Below are positions 20,071-29,129 of a DNA stretch of 64,000 nucleotides, in pieces (position 1 is the stretch's first letter; each line of letters starts with the position of its first letter). The translations under genes were made by a program, and so were the position numbers. Location: the NCBI GenBank assembly GCA_014529675.2, contig CP076040.1, forward strand, positions 3,925,894-3,989,893, in the 5' to 3' direction. Source of the DNA: Opitutia bacterium ISCC 52 (GTDB lineage: Bacteria > Verrucomicrobiota > Verrucomicrobiia > Opitutales > UBA2995). The notes beneath the pieces were generated by a model that saw only the letters and a list, made by a program, of their open reading frames with translations, was not told the origin of the DNA and did no database searches.

Positions 20071-20077
20071 CTGACAA

Positions 20078-20232
20078 TCGTCCTCGTCCTCCTACTTTTT
20101 CTCGTCCTCACAATCTCGGATGATGAGGACTCGGGAGAACTATAATGAAATGGGGAAAGGTGGACCTACCCAAAGGGGCAACCCTTGTTCAATTTATTTA
20201 AAGCAGGAGAAGAAGTAGGAGGACGAGGACGA
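20078..20232. repeat. 155-bp element with perfect 20-bp inverted ends
   Basis: TCGTCCTCGTCCTCCTACTT at 20078-20097 is repeated in exact inverse at 20213-20232. The ends themselves are built on a TCGTCC tandem. Inside there is a further partly symmetrical stretch (CTCGTCCTCAC and GATGATGAGGAC). The element fills the whole gap between two convergent genes, so it may be a MITE-like repeat that also stops transcription from both sides. Confidence 0.75.
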
Positions 20233-20236
20233 CTTT

Positions 20237-21022
20237 CTAAATCAACTTCAACGCCGACTCTACACTCTCATTTTCGTGTACAATCGCGTTGAGTGCTTTT
20301 GCCACAGCCGGGGGATTGTCATGTTGCCAGACGTTTCGCCCAACGGCAATACCACTGGCTCCACCATCAATGGCTTTCTTTACCATGGTGAGTAGCGCTT
20401 CATCATCCCCCATGGCTGCACCACCAAGCACTACGACTGGCACAAGCGCGGCGTCTACAATTGCTTTAAAGTCATCGACCGTTCCGCCAACCGGAAAAGC
20501 GGTCTTTACCACATCGGCTCCCAATTCTGCTGCGAGACGCACAACAAACCCTATATTTTCCACGGTGTAGTCATCAGGACGACCGATACCAATGGGCAAC
20601 GATTCCAGTATGACGGGTGTCTGCGTTTCCAGGCTTTCTGAAATAAGCTCAGAGCAATCTCTAAAATTCTTCATTTCATGAGAATGATGTGGGTAGCACA
20701 TATTCATCACCGCCTGAGCTCCGACCAACTCGGCCTCTTCGCACGTTAAAATCCGTTCGGGGCCCGTGTCAGGATTTCCTGGATACACAGGTTTGTAACA
20801 ATCCGTCCGCAAACAAACCCCTTTTCCTGACAATTCCCTTTTGCACGCTTGAGCGACCCCAAGATTCACAACGAAGCCATCTACACTATCACTGAGTGAG
20901 GAAATTACTTCCCCGGGGTGTTCAAGACCGGTAACCGGAATGGCTGTCCCATGGTCGATCGGTAAAATGACGGTTCGGCCATCATCTTGAAAAAAGGCTT
21001 TGAGATTCTCGGATTTACTCAT
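20237..21022 (-). CDS. Class I aldolase, DeoC/LacD or FbaB-like
   Basis: A 261-residue TIM-barrel aldolase. It starts from ATG 21022. VILPIDHGTAIPVTGLEHPG matches the N-terminal strand of archaeal-type class I fructose-bisphosphate aldolases and LsrF-like enzymes; ADVVKTAFPVGG contains the likely Schiff-base lysine; PVVVLGGAAMGDDEALLTMV and ASGIAVGRNVWQ form the phosphate-binding C-terminal strands. Family knowledge: retro-aldol cleavage of a ketose phosphate to triose units, or a thiolase-like cleavage in the LsrF case. It is transcribed against the sulfatase locus and separated from it by the 155-bp element, and probably provides the final cleavage step of the sugar catabolic route. Confidence 0.87.
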   Translation of the reverse strand: MSKSENLKAFFQDDGRTVILPIDHGTAIPVTGLEHPGEVISSLSDSVDGFVVNLGVAQACKRELSGKGVCLRTDCYKPVYPGNPDTGPERILTCEEAELVGAQAVMNMCYPHHSHEMKNFRDCSELISESLETQTPVILESLPIGIGRPDDYTVENIGFVVRLAAELGADVVKTAFPVGGTVDDFKAIVDAALVPVVVLGGAAMGDDEALLTMVKKAIDGGASGIAVGRNVWQHDNPPAVAKALNAIVHENESVESALKLI

Positions 21023-23462: not shown

Positions 23463-24068
23463 TCAATTCCAATCGTAGCGGATAACTACGGTTTTAGCTA
23501 ACAGGTCCTGAACGGCTTTCTTTTTGGTGTTAAAAGGAAAGGTGATTAATTCAAGAACGTACCAAGCCCCATACAATAACGGTATCATATAATTAGCATA
23601 AGGGCTCACCCAAGGATTCTCTGTTCCCTGAAACCCAAACGCCCAAACGATCCATCCGATTGAAAGAAGAATAGGAAGGCTATCTCGGATTAACGCCTGC
23701 TTGTAGTTGGTGCGACTTTTCGTCTTCACATCCACAAGGACCGTCTTGGTTACGAACTTTCCCAGAGTTGCTCCATAGGCCCCATGAGAAATGATAAAAT
23801 ACAAAGGAATAATGGCGGCAGACACGATCAGCATCATCGAACTACTCGCTGCTGAGAGGTCAAAGAAATAGATAATAAAGATCGGTAATAGGCGAACAAA
23901 AGGCCACAAAATCACCATATCGATCCAGGGCGCCAGTACCCGGGGCCAGCAGGTAGAATAGGGATTCAAATGAACGACACCCTTTTCCCGGTAATAAATA
24001 ATAGCCGCTGTTGTAATCAGCAGTGGTGCCAGTACGTAGACGAATTCCTCAGCTATGAGTTCTCTCAT
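23463..24068 (-). CDS. RDD family membrane protein
   Basis: A 201-residue integral membrane protein with about five hydrophobic segments. RVLAPWIDMVILWP is the Arg-Asp start of the RDD domain, GAYGATLGKFVTKTVLV is its conserved cytosolic loop and KKKAVQDLLAKTVVI its C-terminal motif. Function of the family is poorly known; a few members transport ions or compatible solutes. The gene points away from the sulfatase locus, 29 bp from its last stop codon on the opposite strand, and shows no link to it. Confidence 0.85.
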   Translation of the reverse strand: MRELIAEEFVYVLAPLLITTAAIIYYREKGVVHLNPYSTCWPRVLAPWIDMVILWPFVRLLPIFIIYFFDLSAASSSMMLIVSAAIIPLYFIISHGAYGATLGKFVTKTVLVDVKTKSRTNYKQALIRDSLPILLSIGWIVWAFGFQGTENPWVSPYANYMIPLLYGAWYVLELITFPFNTKKKAVQDLLAKTVVIRYDWN

Positions 24069-24152
24069 ATAAAGTAGGATAAGATTTGGGAGCAGGATAA
24101 GTTGTTAGCAGAAGAACCTCTTTGGTTCAAGGAAGCGACTGTAGAATCACTA

Positions 24153-24464
24153 TCAATCCTCAGCGACAGCGAGACTATTCACTTCCCATCTGATTTTTTG
24201 TCCGTAAGTACGTTGAGCCACTTCTAGGTCGTGCGCTGTTTGAAGCCCCAACCAAAATCCAGGAGTTGTCCCAAAATAGGCCGACAAGCGTAGCGCGGTT
24301 TCCGCGGTGATTGATCTCCTTCCTTTAATAATCTCTGTTAACCGCGAGGCAGGTATTCGAGCATCTTTCGACACTTGGACCTGAGTTACACCCATGGGTT
24401 TGATGAATTCCTCCAGCAATATTTCACCTGGAGTCACAAAATCTAATCTCTTAGAGGCAGCCAT
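24153..24464 (-). CDS. higA: HigA-type antitoxin
   Basis: A 103-residue helix-turn-helix antitoxin. FVTPGEILLEEFIKPMGVTQ is the start of HigA/VapI proteins, followed by the recognition region ASRLTEIIKGRRSITAETAL and the typical FGTTPGFWLGLQTAHDLEVA segment. It should bind and neutralise the HigB toxin and repress the shared promoter. It lies 4 bp downstream of the toxin gene, in the toxin-first order normal for higBA. The likely operator is the double palindrome at 24776-24805. Confidence 0.93.
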   Translation of the reverse strand: MAASKRLDFVTPGEILLEEFIKPMGVTQVQVSKDARIPASRLTEIIKGRRSITAETALRLSAYFGTTPGFWLGLQTAHDLEVAQRTYGQKIRWEVNSLAVAED

Positions 24465-24468
24465 TGGT

Positions 24469-24750
24469 TTAATGATAATCGATGATTGATACGTCGCGCT
24501 TTATCCCCTCTTCCCAACGGAACATAATTCTCCATTGGTCATTTACTCGAATACTCCAGAAGCCCTTAAATTCTCCGCGTAAAGATTCCAGATGATTCGA
24601 TGGTGGAATTCGTAGGTCACGCATATCGTGTGCTTGGTCTATCATTCTTAATTTCCTGCGAACACGTTGCTGAATGTCATTCGGTAACTTTCTAGATCGA
24701 ATCCCACTAAATACACTCTCGGTTTCTTTGTCTCCAAAGGATTCAATCAC
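24469..24750 (-). CDS. higB: HigB-type toxin (RelE superfamily mRNA interferase)
   Basis: A 93-residue protein with a GTG start at 24750 and an AGGGTG ribosome-binding site about 8 bp before it. FGDKETESVFSGIRSRKLP, RRKLRMIDQAHDMRDL, LESLRGEFKGFWSIRVNDQW and RIMFRWEEG are standard HigB landmarks; the Arg-rich beta sheet binds ribosomal A-site mRNA. Family knowledge: HigB cleaves mRNA on the ribosome and slows growth when the antitoxin is lost. The pair is complete and looks intact. It lies in a small accessory stretch near the GxxExxY element. Confidence 0.93.
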   Translation of the reverse strand: MIESFGDKETESVFSGIRSRKLPNDIQQRVRRKLRMIDQAHDMRDLRIPPSNHLESLRGEFKGFWSIRVNDQWRIMFRWEEGIKRDVSIIDYH

Positions 24751-24775
24751 AAGTGCACCCTAGCTGAATAGATAA

Positions 24776-24805
24776 TTACGTCAAGCGTAATTACGCGAGA
24801 CGTAA
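24776..24805. promoter_or_regulatory. Two adjacent palindromic operators of higBA
   Basis: TTACG-N5-CGTAA occurs twice end to end, at 24776-24790 (spacer tcaag) and 24791-24805 (spacer cgaga), giving an exact 15-bp period; the first extends to TAATTACG/CGTAATTA. It begins 26 bp upstream of the higB start codon, where autoregulatory sites of such operons lie. Binding by HigA is inference. Confidence 0.7.
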
Positions 24806-24966
24806 CCCCACCTCATGATACTTTTCAATTCCGGATTCACAGAAAACAATCAACAACAAGTATATCCATCTATAACCCTAGCTTCTCCTTGTGCCAGAGA
24901 CATTCCAGCAATCGACGAATTGCATCCAACTTTCAAACTAGCTTGAAAGAAAAATTCACACCCCAA

Positions 24967-26031
24967 TTAGGCCCAAACACGCTTTAAGAACCGCACCCAG
25001 TTCTTCCAAGCGATATTCTCCATATCTTCGGCCTTGTAACCGCGCGCTTCAAGCATGGGGAAGATCTTCTGCACATCTCCAATTGTATCCAAATCTTCAG
25101 GACTTTGTTCCGTTCCGAATCCTCCGTCGAGGTCGGTGCCGATTGCAGCGTGTTCTGAATTACCAGCTAATTGGCAAACACGATCAATGTTATCGACCAT
25201 GTGTTCAAGTCGTGGGTGAAGCTCTTCGACCGTGGATTTTCTTTTGATCCAATTGGGTACCAGCATCCAGGCATCGAGTGCTGCACCGATAACGGCACCA
25301 CGCTCAATGAGCTCTTTCATTTGCTCATCGGTAAATTGACGGTGATCCGGAACGAGAGCACGGCAGTTGGAATGACTGGCCCAGACATTACCGCCGAAAT
25401 GATCCATCGCTTCACGAAAGCTCTCATCACAAAGATGGGTAGCATCGAGGATGATGTTAAGGCGTTCCAATTCTTTCAAAAGATCGCGGCCTACTTGTCC
25501 GATTCCTCCCTCCGCATCAGTACCTTGTGCGTAGGTGCCGGGTCCATAGTGCGCAGGGCCCATCGCTCGTAAACCTTGCTCATAGGAGCGTTCAACATGA
25601 TCCAAGGTTACCATGGAGTCTGCGCCTTCTAAGCTCAGCACGTAACCTATGGGGGTCGTCTCTGGATCTTCATTCCACGCTTTTAAATGCGCATCCAGTT
25701 CTGCCGCATTACGTATTTGCCCCATCTCTCCTGCTTCTTCCATTGCGCGATACCAAGCCAATTGTCCTTGCGTTTGAGCCCACGCTTGTTCGGGGGAATG
25801 CCAACCGGGCAAAGGATTATCGCGGCGCACATAACGAGCAATTTGGGTGGCAACACAGAGGCCCATATTTCCTTTACGCATGGCGTGTAAGGAGACCGTG
25901 TTATTCCCCCGGTCTTTTTTATCCGTCATACCTTCCTCAGATTTCCGGATGGCGTCCACGGACCAACGCAGGTCGCGGTTCCATTCCAGAGCGTTCATAG
26001 AGAGGTCAAGGTGGGCGTCAACTAGGAGCAT
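24967..26031 (-). CDS. Membrane dipeptidase (peptidase family M19)
   Basis: A 354-residue zinc dipeptidase of the renal dipeptidase family. The binuclear metal site is visible: VDAHLDLS near the N-terminus (His-x-Asp), the bridging glutamate in YVLSLEGAD, the histidine in DATHLCDESF, and VWASHSNCR; the distal aspartate is in IGTDLDGGFG. No signal peptide is seen, so it is probably cytoplasmic. Family knowledge: M19 enzymes hydrolyse dipeptides, often with a D-residue at the C-terminal side. That suits the D-threonine-aldolase-like gene upstream in the same direction, from which it is separated by the inserted GxxExxY element. Confidence 0.92.
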   Translation of the reverse strand: MLLVDAHLDLSMNALEWNRDLRWSVDAIRKSEEGMTDKKDRGNNTVSLHAMRKGNMGLCVATQIARYVRRDNPLPGWHSPEQAWAQTQGQLAWYRAMEEAGEMGQIRNAAELDAHLKAWNEDPETTPIGYVLSLEGADSMVTLDHVERSYEQGLRAMGPAHYGPGTYAQGTDAEGGIGQVGRDLLKELERLNIILDATHLCDESFREAMDHFGGNVWASHSNCRALVPDHRQFTDEQMKELIERGAVIGAALDAWMLVPNWIKRKSTVEELHPRLEHMVDNIDRVCQLAGNSEHAAIGTDLDGGFGTEQSPEDLDTIGDVQKIFPMLEARGYKAEDMENIAWKNWVRFLKRVWA

Positions 26032-26047
26032 GATATATTATTATTGG

Positions 26048-26492
26048 AACCACAGAAAGCGCAGAAGGCACAAAAAGGTGAAATAGGAGGCTATTGGATA
26101 AATTTGCGTATTTGAAGTCTCGGAGCTCCAAAGTTGATGAGGAGTCCGTGATTAATTTTAGTGGCACGCAAATAGGCAAGAACTTGGGCTATATGCTCAT
26201 CTGAAATGCTTTTTACAGCTTTTAACTCAACCAGTATCTTATCATCTATGATTAAATCGGCAAGATAGTCACCAACAACCGAGCCATCTTCATCAACCAC
26301 TGGAATAGGAACTTGCTGCTCCACCTTTAGATTCAACTTTCTCAATCTATTCTTTAATGAGTTCTCATAAACCTTCTCTAAGAATCCATTTTTAAAATAC
26401 TTGTGCGCGGAAAATGCGGTTTCCCTAATCGTGTCTGCCAAATAATTGATGTCCCCTTCTTTCATTTTGTGCCTTTTGTGCTTTTTGCGGTT
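26048..26492. mobile_element. Candidate GxxExxY element with 28-bp inverted ends
   Basis: The left end (26048-26075, AACCACAGAAAGCGCAGAAG then GCACAAAA) and the reverse complement of the right end (26465-26492, AACCGCAAAAAGCACAAAAG then GCACAAAA) match at 24 of 28 positions. Between them lies a single gene, GxxExxY, whose ATG touches the right repeat. The 445-bp unit sits between the dipeptidase and the PLP-enzyme genes. No transposase is encoded, and no target-site duplication was found on inspection. Whether it moves is unknown. Confidence 0.55.
26091..26465 (-). CDS. GxxExxY protein, PD-(D/E)XK nuclease-like
   Basis: A 124-residue protein with the name-giving motif GFLEKVYENSL at about residues 28-38, and a nuclease-like core: DLIIDDKILVELKAVKSI holds the Asp and the Glu-x-Lys of the PD-(D/E)XK superfamily. 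The family is widespread and often multi-copy in Bacteroidota, Verrucomicrobiota and Planctomycetota; its function is not established. The gene is complete and bounded by inverted repeats. The closing segment HIAQVLAYLRATKINHGLLI and NFGAPRLQIRKFI is also typical. A role in DNA processing of its own element is possible but unproven. Confidence 0.93.
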   Translation of the reverse strand: MKEGDINYLADTIRETAFSAHKYFKNGFLEKVYENSLKNRLRKLNLKVEQQVPIPVVDEDGSVVGDYLADLIIDDKILVELKAVKSISDEHIAQVLAYLRATKINHGLLINFGAPRLQIRKFIQ

Positions 26493-26498
26493 AAAATA

Positions 26499-27605
26499 CT
26501 ACAACCGATGCCTTGCCGCGTTCGTCCACTGTCCGGTAACGACATCGCCTTCCACCACATTCACATGATCATAAAGGGCCATCGTAGGACAAATATGAGC
26601 GGGGACCCCTAGATATACATCGCCCACCTGAATCGATTCCCAATTTTGCACTTTGGCAACCAGGTGCTCTTCACTGTGACCAACATACTCAGCGTTTTCC
26701 AGTCCGTGAATTTGTACCCTGGGGTGAGACATTTCAGAAGCAACCGCCTTATGCCCCAGTTCAAAACAGACCATGCCGTTCTTAGGCTTACTCACCACTC
26801 GAGTTAGCAGAAAAGCGGCATTCTCGAAAGGCATGTCAGCAAGCCTGATGCTACTGTTTAAATCCCAAAGCAACGTAGTCCCTGGACTCAATTCAACTCC
26901 TTCACGTTTGGCATGAATCGGGAACGATGGAGAACCGCCCGCAACCACCACCGGGGGAGCGAATCCCATTTTGTTGAGCTGGCTTATCAGGTCCTCAGCT
27001 TCTGCATAAGCCTTGTCCACCTTTTCAGTTCGTTCGCTCAGTGATTTATCCTGAATGTGACCGTCATAGACATGTAGCCCTCGAATATCGAGACGCGGCA
27101 TCTCATGAAGCACTTTGTAACGTGCGACGGCCTCCATTCCAGGAAGCACTCCGGTTCGATTCATTCCGACGTTGATGTCTAAAAATACCCCCAGTCGAGT
27201 CGAATGAGTTTCACAAGCTTTATTCAGCTGATGGATGATGGCCGCATTATCCACCACCACGGAAAATCGAGTGTCGGGAAATTGTGAGGACATCTCAACC
27301 AGGAGTTCCATTTCTGGTCCCACAGGCTGAATGGCCATGAGCAGTCCCTCGACTTTTTCTTCAGCCAGTAGGTTAGCTTCGGCCAGGGTCGCGCACTTAA
27401 ACTTTGAGATCCCGGCTTCCACCTGCATGCGAACCACTTCAGCCAACTTATGCGTTTTGATATGGGGTCGTAGCCGGGACGGATCACCCGCGATTTTCAC
27501 CATCTGCTGAATGTTATTCCGAATCCGGTCAGGATAGATTAACACCGCAGGTGACGGAATGCTTGTCACATCAGGAATGGTTCCAGGGAAAAGAGGCATA
27601 TTCAA
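26499..27605 (-). CDS. D-threonine aldolase / D-serine dehydratase-like PLP enzyme
   Basis: A 368-residue alanine-racemase-fold enzyme. IPSPAVLIYPDRIRNNIQQM opens the PLP barrel and LRPHIKTHKLAEV contains the lysine that forms the Schiff base; LGVFLDINVGMNRTGV and LHVYDGHIQD follow in the barrel, with VVAGGSPSFPIH as phosphate-binding loop. The last 120 residues are the beta domain, where APAHICPTM-like PAHICPTMALYDHVNVV supplies the metal ligands (His-x-Cys) of the DSD1/D-threonine aldolase family. It probably cleaves or dehydrates a D-amino acid. With the M19 dipeptidase it could degrade D-residue dipeptides. A second ATG two codons in is an alternative start. Confidence 0.9.
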   Translation of the reverse strand: MNMPLFPGTIPDVTSIPSPAVLIYPDRIRNNIQQMVKIAGDPSRLRPHIKTHKLAEVVRMQVEAGISKFKCATLAEANLLAEEKVEGLLMAIQPVGPEMELLVEMSSQFPDTRFSVVVDNAAIIHQLNKACETHSTRLGVFLDINVGMNRTGVLPGMEAVARYKVLHEMPRLDIRGLHVYDGHIQDKSLSERTEKVDKAYAEAEDLISQLNKMGFAPPVVVAGGSPSFPIHAKREGVELSPGTTLLWDLNSSIRLADMPFENAAFLLTRVVSKPKNGMVCFELGHKAVASEMSHPRVQIHGLENAEYVGHSEEHLVAKVQNWESIQVGDVYLGVPAHICPTMALYDHVNVVEGDVVTGQWTNAARHRL

Positions 27606-27637
27606 AAGAATCAGTCGTTATGGCAGTTTCGACAAGC

Positions 27638-27946
27638 TTAACTGTCTGGGCTTACGATCAGAACATCGTAAGACTGTTTGTCCATAGGGAGTGCTCCTTC
27701 ATGACGTAGTTCCACGTTGGCTCCTGTCCCATCCGCAGCCGTTCCTTCGTTTTGCCAGTCACCGGATGCCAAGGTCTCACGACGGCGAAGTTGATAAGTA
27801 GCACCCACCCCGGTATCAAGACTCACAACGACATCATTTCCATCTATTGCGGGTTGGCCTTCGATGAGGATCGTTTTGATTCCTTGTCCGGCAGCAAGCA
27901 ACGAGAAGAAGAGACAGGAGAGGAAGACTATTATTCGAAAATGCAT
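27638..27946 (-). CDS. Small exported protein of unknown function
   Basis: A 102-residue protein with a signal peptide (MHFRIIVFLSCLFFSLLAAG). The mature part contains TYQLRRRETLASGDWQNEG and ends SYDVLIVSPDS. This beta-rich YxLxRxxxLxxxxW pattern is one I associate with exported repeats and tail domains in Verrucomicrobiota, often part of larger proteins ending FYRV. Here it stands alone. It lies 32 bp upstream of the D-threonine-aldolase-like gene in the same direction and may be cotranscribed. Function not known. Confidence 0.7.
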   Translation of the reverse strand: MHFRIIVFLSCLFFSLLAAGQGIKTILIEGQPAIDGNDVVVSLDTGVGATYQLRRRETLASGDWQNEGTAADGTGANVELRHEGALPMDKQSYDVLIVSPDS

Positions 27947-28001
27947 AGCTCAGAAACAATTAAGAATTCAATCTTCAGCTTATCCCATTTCGACTAGACT
28001 T

Positions 28002-28036
28002 GTAAGCCTTTCAATAGCTTGAAATAAATGGCTTAC
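28002..28036. promoter_or_regulatory. Nested palindrome upstream of dehydrogenase gene
   Basis: GTAAGCC (28002-28008) pairs with GGCTTAC (28030-28036), and inside TTTCAA (28009-28014) pairs with TTGAAA (28019-28024) around TAGC. It lies in the divergent gap, 43 bp before ATG 28080. It could be an operator for a sugar-responsive repressor or a 5' RNA hairpin. A similar CTTTCAA-N6-TTGAAAG sequence occurs near 24936 downstream of the dipeptidase gene. Confidence 0.45.
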
Positions 28037-28079
28037 TCGAATCAAAGCTACTCAAAGACAAAGTCACTACCCCACTATT

Positions 28080-29129
28080 ATGCCTCAAAATAACTATAAA
28101 GTCGGAGTCATCGGTTACGGCTGGGCTGCGACAGCTCACATTGATGCCATTAATGGAACGAACCAGTGTACGGTTACCGCGGTTTATTCTTCGCGCGAAC
28201 TGGACGCCCAGGACCTAAAAGCCGCTCATAATTCTGACATCACTCCATATCAGGACCTCGATGACATGCTGGCTGATCCAAACGTGAATACGGTCTCGAT
28301 CACCTCCTACCCGGGACAGCACAAAGACCAGGCCATTGCTGCTGCCAAAGCGGGAAAGAACCTTATTATCGAAAAACCACTGGCTTTATCCCTAACCGAT
28401 TGTTACGAGATTCAAACAGCCGTTAACGAAGCGGGCGTTCAGGCCTGTGTGTGCTTTGAAGTTCGCTTTATCAGCCAGTTTCAAACCACCAAAAAGATCA
28501 TCGATGAAGGACTCTTAGGAGACATTCATTATGGAGAGGTCGATTACTACCACGGCATTGGTCCCTGGTATGGTCAGTACCGCTGGAATACGACCAAAGA
28601 AAATGGAGGTAGCAGTCTTCTTTCGGCTGGTTGCCATGCGCTCGATGCATTGCTCCTGTGCATGGGGAACGATGTGACATCCGTTTCATCGATGGGTACA
28701 CAATCAACCCACGACGTTTTTTCAAAATACGAATACCCCACCACAACGGTCACCTTGATAAACTTTGCCAATGGCAAGGTAGGCAAAGCGGCATCCGTCA
28801 TAGATTGTTTTCAACCGTATTACTTTCACACGCATTTAGTAGGAAGCGAAGGGAGCATGCTCGATGATAAGATCTACTCAGCCAAGTTGCATCTTCGCGA
28901 TAAGGAGTGGACGAAACTTCCCATCGCTATGGCTGACTCGGGCGATGTGGCAGATCATCCTTACCAGGATCAGTTTCAGGCATTCTTTGATGCACTGGAC
29001 GAAGGTAAAGCGATGCCACTTACATCCTTAGACGAAGCCATTAAATCGTTCGAAGTGATCTTTGCTGCTGACAAATCGGTAGAAGAAAGACGTCCGGTTA
29101 CGATCGAAGAAATGAGAGCACATGGGTGA
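28080..29129 (+). CDS. Gfo/Idh/MocA family oxidoreductase
   Basis: A 349-residue NAD(P)-dependent dehydrogenase. VGVIGYGWAATAHIDAING is the Rossmann start, LIIEKPLALSLTDC the lysine motif, and GGSSLLSAGCHALDALLLCMG the substrate-side segment with the catalytic histidine. YGQYRWNTTKENGGSS just before it is common in sugar-acting members. No export signal. Its stop codon overlaps the start of the LmbE deacetylase gene by 8 bp, so the two are coupled; both converge on the amino-sugar operon on the other strand. The pair may act on an N-acetyl sugar derivative. Confidence 0.92.
   Translation: MPQNNYKVGVIGYGWAATAHIDAINGTNQCTVTAVYSSRELDAQDLKAAHNSDITPYQDLDDMLADPNVNTVSITSYPGQHKDQAIAAAKAGKNLIIEKPLALSLTDCYEIQTAVNEAGVQACVCFEVRFISQFQTTKKIIDEGLLGDIHYGEVDYYHGIGPWYGQYRWNTTKENGGSSLLSAGCHALDALLLCMGNDVTSVSSMGTQSTHDVFSKYEYPTTTVTLINFANGKVGKAASVIDCFQPYYFHTHLVGSEGSMLDDKIYSAKLHLRDKEWTKLPIAMADSGDVADHPYQDQFQAFFDALDEGKAMPLTSLDEAIKSFEVIFAADKSVEERRPVTIEEMRAHG

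Follow-up and report, generated by a model that had tools for sequence, protein, structure and literature searches.

A GxxExxY gene enclosed by inverted arms is a likely member of a widespread family of very small mobile elements

Introduction

In RAYT/REP-REPIN systems (TnpA_REP, related to IS200/IS605), a small gene lies between inverted copies of a repeat, and the repeat varies with the protein (PMC2817692; for RAYT/REPIN, also PMC3116915). The intervening sequence (IVS) of the Coxiella burnetii 23S rRNA is 428 nt long, has 28-bp terminal inverted repeats and a single small ORF, and is considered selfish (PMC4990558). The locus described here resembles the 23S rRNA IVS (S23p/IVP) in its ~430-nt scale, its terminal inverted repeats of ~28 bp and its one small ORF. 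However, the IVS is embedded in rRNA, from which RNase III excises it, and carries a four-helix-bundle ORF, whereas the present unit is intergenic and encodes a predicted nuclease.

The gene in question belongs to GxxExxY, a common annotation of the "function unknown" type, and lies in a 64,000-nt stretch of the Opitutia bacterium ISCC 52 genome (contig CP076040.1), referred to below as the window; the genome is called G000 or the own genome. The open literature, searched by family name, accessions, arm sequences and anatomy, contained no earlier description of such a unit. A prior description cannot be excluded, because subscription papers and preprints were mostly outside the reach of the search.

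Results

The unit spans 445 nt (window 26048-26492, minus strand) and consists of a single small GxxExxY gene enclosed by 28-nt inverted arms. The arm downstream of the gene (26048-26075, plus strand; AACCACAGAAAGCGCAGAAGGCACAAAA) and the arm upstream of it (26465-26492, minus strand; AACCGCAAAAAGCACAAAAGGCACAAAA in reverse-complement reading) are complementary at 24 of 28 positions. This is exactly what a first-pass annotation, made from the sequence alone, had claimed for the two ends hugging the gene, at the same coordinates. A unit scan of both arms resolves the upstream one into three CRCARAA-type units at ~9-nt spacing, and a repeat finder extends the pair to 26039-26075/26465-26501 (81% over 37 nt). 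The inverted-repeat score of the window element is 43, compared with a best score of 35.5 among 3000 random intervals of equal geometry. The GxxExxY ORF (26091-26465, minus strand; 124 aa) occupies the space between the arms, its ATG starting at the innermost base of its upstream arm, and the unit encodes no other gene.

The unit is intergenic, situated between two protein-coding host genes on the same strand. Upstream, the stop codon of a D-serine-dehydratase-like gene (Ala_racemase_N and D-ser_dehydrat; 26499-27605, minus strand) is 6 nt from the element, and downstream, the start codon of an M19 dipeptidase gene (24967-26031, minus strand) is 16 nt from it. The first-pass annotation had described the element as separating two genes of a plausible D-amino-acid pathway. 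Its position between these genes held, but the context looks incidental, since a sister-genus element lies behind the dehydratase gene without an M19 gene. No known RNA was matched in an Rfam search of window 24000-28500, and a search for phage origin gave zero matches among 50,697 phage records. Directly downstream of the M19 gene lies a HigB-like toxin paired with an XRE-type antitoxin (type II toxin-antitoxin; window 24153-24750). Another spaced inverted repeat is found at window 20073-20237, with 36-nt arms (GACAATCGTCCTCGTCCTCCTACTTTTTCTCGTCCT), a 93-nt spacer and short tandem units; it is possibly a gene-less element of related kind.

The window protein meets family membership for both TIGR04256 GxxExxY (1e-35, 122.6 bits; curated cut-off 35) and PF13366 PDDEXK_3 (4e-32, 111.5 bits; curated cut-off 22). 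In an alignment of 73 sequences D70 is invariant and E30, Y33, K82, Q94 and Y98 are nearly so, with K82, Q94 and Y98 at ≥90%; E80 reaches ≥90% in one alignment and falls below the 90% list in a second. From this conservation and a weak alignment with T7 endonuclease I, the residues D70...E80-x-K82 (codons 26220-26258, minus strand) are predicted to form the metal-binding/catalytic core, which is followed by Q94-x3-Y98 (codons 26172-26186). The AlphaFold2 (AF2) model of the protein is confident, with a pLDDT of 96.6. Its top fold match in the PDB is entry 4ic1, SSO0001, which we take to be Cas4 (E 1.7e-4, TM about 0.6), followed by AdnAB, lambda exonuclease and MGME1, with archaeal tRNA-splicing endonucleases further down the list. 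Direct sequence relation to solved structures is limited to weak matches, namely lmo1582 and T7 endonuclease I (E 0.5). In the latter, D70/E80/K82 align with the D-E-K core of the enzyme, whose residue identities are general background. On the basis of the fold matches and of the conservation and alignment of D70/E80/K82, the GxxExxY protein is predicted to be a minimal PD-(D/E)XK nuclease of the Cas4/RecB type; neither catalysis nor DNA binding has direct support.

Comparison of the window gene with its counterpart L256 in G005, which appears to be contig CALJGU010000050.1 of an uncultured Opitutales bacterium, gave a dN of 0.13-0.14 and a dS of about 1.35. The resulting dN/dS near 0.1 indicates that the protein is under purifying selection. 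The dS of the neighbouring genes in the same comparison is only 0.5-0.8. The GxxExxY gene clearly exceeds both neighbours in dS, and the element is evolving more rapidly than the DNA around it; gene conversion among copies or replacement at the same site may account for the difference.

Inverted arms are a trait of the family rather than of this locus alone. We scored 114 GxxExxY genes, drawn from Verrucomicrobiota as well as other phyla; the set includes two loci in duplicate and excludes one whose frame contains a stop. Flanking inverted arms exceed the 99th percentile of random intervals at 100 of the 114 and the 99.9th percentile at 91; clear arms are missing at 14, some of which lie within long fused ORFs. 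An unbiased scan for long spaced inverted repeats, for which the own genome was sampled over 864 kb, returned only 12, five of them flanking GxxExxY genes. Five of the six GxxExxY genes in this sample are arm-flanked, and the sixth is truncated on one side. The own genome holds about ten GxxExxY loci, nearly all with closely fitting inverted arms, and the arm sequences differ among them (AACCACGAATGGACACGAATGGACACGAAT, AACCGCAGATGGACACAGATGAACACAAAT, AGCCGCAAAAGAACGCAAAGAGCACAAAA, AACTACGAAATGCGCTAAATTTCGCGAAA and others).

Each arm consists of three ~7-nt units separated by 1-4-nt spacers, with a period of mostly 9-10 nt, a structure present in 90% of arms and in 2% of shuffled arms. The left and right arms of one element share a mean identity of 87%, and arm-end positions are uncertain by a few nucleotides. 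Among the unit types are CACGAAA (L187, L191, L164 and L208), CACTRAT (L195 and L206), ACAGGAT (L184, L198, L199 and L203) and CGCCAAG (L186 and L192). The unit type tracks the protein clade (Mantel r=0.19, p=0.001) and can be common to different phyla, as in Bacteroides L175 and verrucomicrobial L042, or in Sphingomonas L176 and verrucomicrobial L209. The single arm sequence considered by the first-pass annotation is thus one of many, and a single inherited repeat family for all copies is ruled out, as the arms differ by clade.

Arm similarity follows protein similarity. For protein pairs that are 60-70% identical, the arms are 74% identical against a baseline of 61% (aligned shuffled arms), whereas the 4-fold degenerate sites of the same pairs agree at 27%, which is random. 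Arms agree at 87% when protein identity is ≥70%, and their similarity equals the baseline below about 50%. The conservation of the arms while 4-fold sites are random indicates that selection holds the arms together with the protein. It is possible that the covariation partly reflects linked inheritance, for which the saturated synonymous sites serve as the control.

Outside Verrucomicrobiota the sample was small, comprising plasmid records and eight genome-contig matches. Among these records, arms are clear in Bacteroides, Sphingomonas, Bernardetia, Prevotella (L073) and Kiritimatiellales; they are weak or absent in plasmid records of Fusobacteria, Treponema, Persicobacter, Gemmatirosa and Prevotella nigrescens. 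DUF559 was considered as an alternative cargo and dismissed, being rare in these data and found in long ORFs. Genes of a different family, TIGR02436 (S23/IVP-type), occur at loci L223-L252 (especially L226/L240, L232, L249 and L251). The units that contain them measure ~460 nt and end in inverted arms made of tandem heptamers (period 7-8). These arms exceed the 99.9th percentile at 17 of 30 loci, and L226 and L240 represent a 459-nt unit in two copies that are 93% identical but lie in unrelated surroundings.

The mobility of the arm-to-arm segment is evident from dispersed copies. Elements at unrelated loci are 96% identical within one genome (L061 and L048), 85% identical within another (L049 and L063) and 89% identical between two congeners (L160 and L154). 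In all three pairs the flanks are unrelated and the homology is bounded, within a few nucleotides, by the outer arm ends. Sites in relatives, mostly draft MAGs, were also compared. The gatA/gatB element of the own genome has an empty site in G005 (contiguous, 88% identity), in G004 and in a sister genus (G006); an orthologous copy is present in G002, and one arm plus debris is left in G001. Three further element sites of the own genome are empty in G005, one of them keeping a mini-hairpin, AAACTAC...GTAGTTT. The window site is occupied in G005 and in another genus (G007). In G006 the middle of the gene is deleted there and both arms are kept, which we read as a non-autonomous derivative caught in place. 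In G002 the window site is empty and holds a REP/RAYT-like hairpin instead, of a kind also found in G000.

The segment from arm to arm (26048-26492 in the window) is therefore the mobile unit, and orthologous sites may lack it or hold a copy with an internal deletion. Two general criteria for a mobile element, a bounded segment at non-homologous sites and empty sites in relatives, are both met. No consistent target-site duplication was found at any offset tested. Movement appears to be infrequent, because orthologous copies have kept their sites between species and even between genera. The first-pass claim that the unit spreads within genomes thus held, as the dispersed copies share exactly the arm-to-arm segment. 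That annotation would have been refuted by a lack of the repeats beside other GxxExxY genes and of any empty site in relatives; contrary to this, arms are present at most GxxExxY genes and empty sites exist. The target duplications that it suggested looking for were not borne out.

Arm sequences also occur without a gene. Across 87 genomes of the phylum, 17 of the 39 that carry GxxExxY genes contain a strict arm pattern, as do 0 of the 48 that lack such genes (Fisher p=1e-7), while a mirrored control pattern occurs in 0 of 87. The arm pattern of the window type occurs in 1 of 87, the own genome only, at two elements and two solos. Many of the strict-pattern matches are gene-less inverted pairs. 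Some genomes contain up to ~27 copies of an arm sequence, many in gene-less inverted pairs 70-100 nt across; G099, with one GxxExxY gene match, has about 26 arm matches, many of them in pairs of this size. Gene-less arm pairs, that is, non-autonomous hairpins, accumulate only where genomes also hold GxxExxY genes in this set of 87. The earlier proposal of a non-autonomous element held insofar as gene-less derivatives exist.

Five loci of G099 (L279, L284, L286, L287 and L291) contain arm pairs that are nested or arranged tail to tail, CACGAAT-type hairpins among them. These might be remnants of lost elements; only one GxxExxY gene was found in that genome. Hairpins of the REP/RAYT-like kind are located in G000 at 2795270-2795511, 4056583-4056655, 4265774-4265847 and 4325481-4325623 (AGTAGAACAGGCATCYTGCCTG; TGTAGGAGRGGAGCTTGCTCCCGA), and one such pair encloses a solo GxxExxY-type hairpin (2795305-2795370).

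The elements show a characteristic placement. Of 75 elements, 46 have a co-directional stop codon in the interval -30..+10 nt around the left arm, compared with 15 of 78 on the mirror side and 3.7% at random positions; the test counts stop-free frames, not curated genes. This placement may reflect a target preference, or the survival of transcribed copies only, and both remain possible. Because the ATG is located at the inner arm end, we infer that the unit itself leaves no space for a promoter. GxxExxY units of Sphingomonas parapaucimobilis (L176) and Bacteroides finegoldii (L175) lie within a fab gene cluster (fabD/fabG) and directly behind radA, co-directional with their surroundings.

Discussion

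The window unit likely belongs to a widely distributed family of very small mobile elements, RAYT/REPIN-like in organization and based on another enzyme class, with GxxExxY as their own mover. Members are typically ~430-530 nt, with one gene between arms of three short tandem units. The role of the nuclease-like protein as mover, raised already in the first-pass annotation, fits all observations but is unproven and inferred only. We propose that, by analogy to REP/RAYT, the GxxExxY nuclease would recognise arms belonging to its own clade. These would probably be bound as single-stranded hairpins or extruded cruciforms, with one contact repeat per 7-nt unit. Cutting at or near the arms may then free or copy the unit, which would insert without target duplication. 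Copies directly behind a co-directional stop codon would survive, their promoterless gene being co-transcribed, and gene-less arm pairs would be mobilised in trans. A helper enzyme from the host or from another element is not excluded. In a bolder reading, GxxExxY proteins form a kind of mobility enzyme that has gone unrecognised. As stand-alone nucleases of Cas4/RecB-like type, they would read three-heptamer arms by a clade-specific code and move a ~450-nt unit and gene-less hairpins without target duplication; the four-helix-bundle (S23/IVP) units would follow the same logic in parallel, as a class built around a different protein. We see as much reason to doubt this joint claim as to accept it.

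The main rival is a passenger model, in which another enzyme acting in trans (an IS transposase, a RAYT or a host recombinase) moves the arms, and the nuclease is cargo kept for defence, addiction or repair, for example. In its favor, four-helix-bundle TIGR02436 genes lie in units of comparable size whose arms are also tandem heptamers, REP/RAYT-like hairpins are present in these genomes as well, and the absence of a target-site duplication leaves no transposase signature that would name the mover. The similarity of the TIGR02436 units gives this model some weight, and a common external mover is not ruled out. Nevertheless, we consider it unlikely. The arm unit type follows the GxxExxY clade and not the host, the arms are conserved with the protein despite saturated synonymous sites, and strict-pattern arm hairpins are restricted to GxxExxY-bearing genomes among the 87. 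Furthermore, the TIGR02436 arms are differently built (period 7-8, more units), and the unit contains no other gene.

Still weaker is an RNA-level model, according to which the two arms form an RNA stem in the transcript to which the protein binds, and the element spreads via RNA or recombination like 23S rRNA intervening sequences. The size and anatomy close to the Coxiella IVS (PMC4990558) and the co-directional position behind stop codons, which implies co-transcription, speak for it. However, the fold and active site are of a DNA-exonuclease type (Cas4, lambda exonuclease, MGME1), even though lower-ranked fold matches include archaeal tRNA-splicing endonucleases. Moreover, the elements lie between genes and outside rRNA, selection for expression explains the stop-codon placement equally well, and to our knowledge there is no reverse transcriptase partner; we therefore regard this model as very unlikely. 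The view that nothing moves at all makes the gene an old one passed on vertically, its arms an operator or a processing signal, and the empty sites deletions. It can draw on insertions that are orthologous across species (gatA/gatB, the window site) and on the low dN/dS. It is all but excluded by near-identical copies at unrelated loci whose homology ends at the arms, by multicopy gene-less arm pairs and by empty sites in closest and distant relatives alike; to hold, it would require the copies at unrelated loci to be artefacts of assembly. A purely regulatory role of the repeat is likewise contradicted by the dispersed copies.

Viewing GxxExxY proteins as the cores of mobile units with clade-specific ends gives a common annotation without function a testable role as mover, and GxxExxY units account for ACCACAGATGAACACAGAT-like repeats dispersed through genomes with GxxExxY genes. 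It also suggests a minimal class of mobile element driven by a type of nuclease that is not known to act alone in transposition. An arm code that can be read from the match between unit type and protein clade could reveal how new DNA specificities arise in a small nuclease.

Among known systems, TIGR02436 units in the same genomes possibly link the GxxExxY units to the 23S rRNA IVS. Terminal inverted repeats, non-autonomous derivatives and empty sites are shared with MITEs and classical IS, but the unit has no DDE transposase, no target-site duplication, and ends that vary by clade; the first two of these differences argue against a classical IS or a MITE. The protein resembles Cas4/RecB-type PD-(D/E)XK nucleases in its fold match (4ic1) and its D-ExK and QxxxY motifs. 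Unlike them, it is a free-standing protein of 124 aa on a mobile unit, without a CRISPR or helicase partner and, as inferred from its sequence, without the cysteines of an Fe-S cluster.

The closest likeness in organization is to RAYT/REPIN. A gene flanked by inverted repeats that also occur dispersed without the gene, the criterion for such a system, is met, and in both cases orthologous genes often stay put for long, the elements are extragenic, and the repeat covaries with the protein. In contrast, the HUH tyrosine transposase (Transposase_17) required of a RAYT is absent; only PDDEXK_3 was found, with a PD-(D/E)XK fold. A single REP is a hairpin with a GTAG/GGAG-type head, whereas a single GxxExxY repeat is not, and its hairpin forms only between two arms of three tandem ~7-mers each. 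GxxExxY arm copy numbers are lower, and the elements are co-directional behind stop codons. Given the inferred cutting of its own arms and movement of hairpins in trans, the GxxExxY unit would, by analogy, work in the mode of a RAYT with its REPINs, using a different nuclease.
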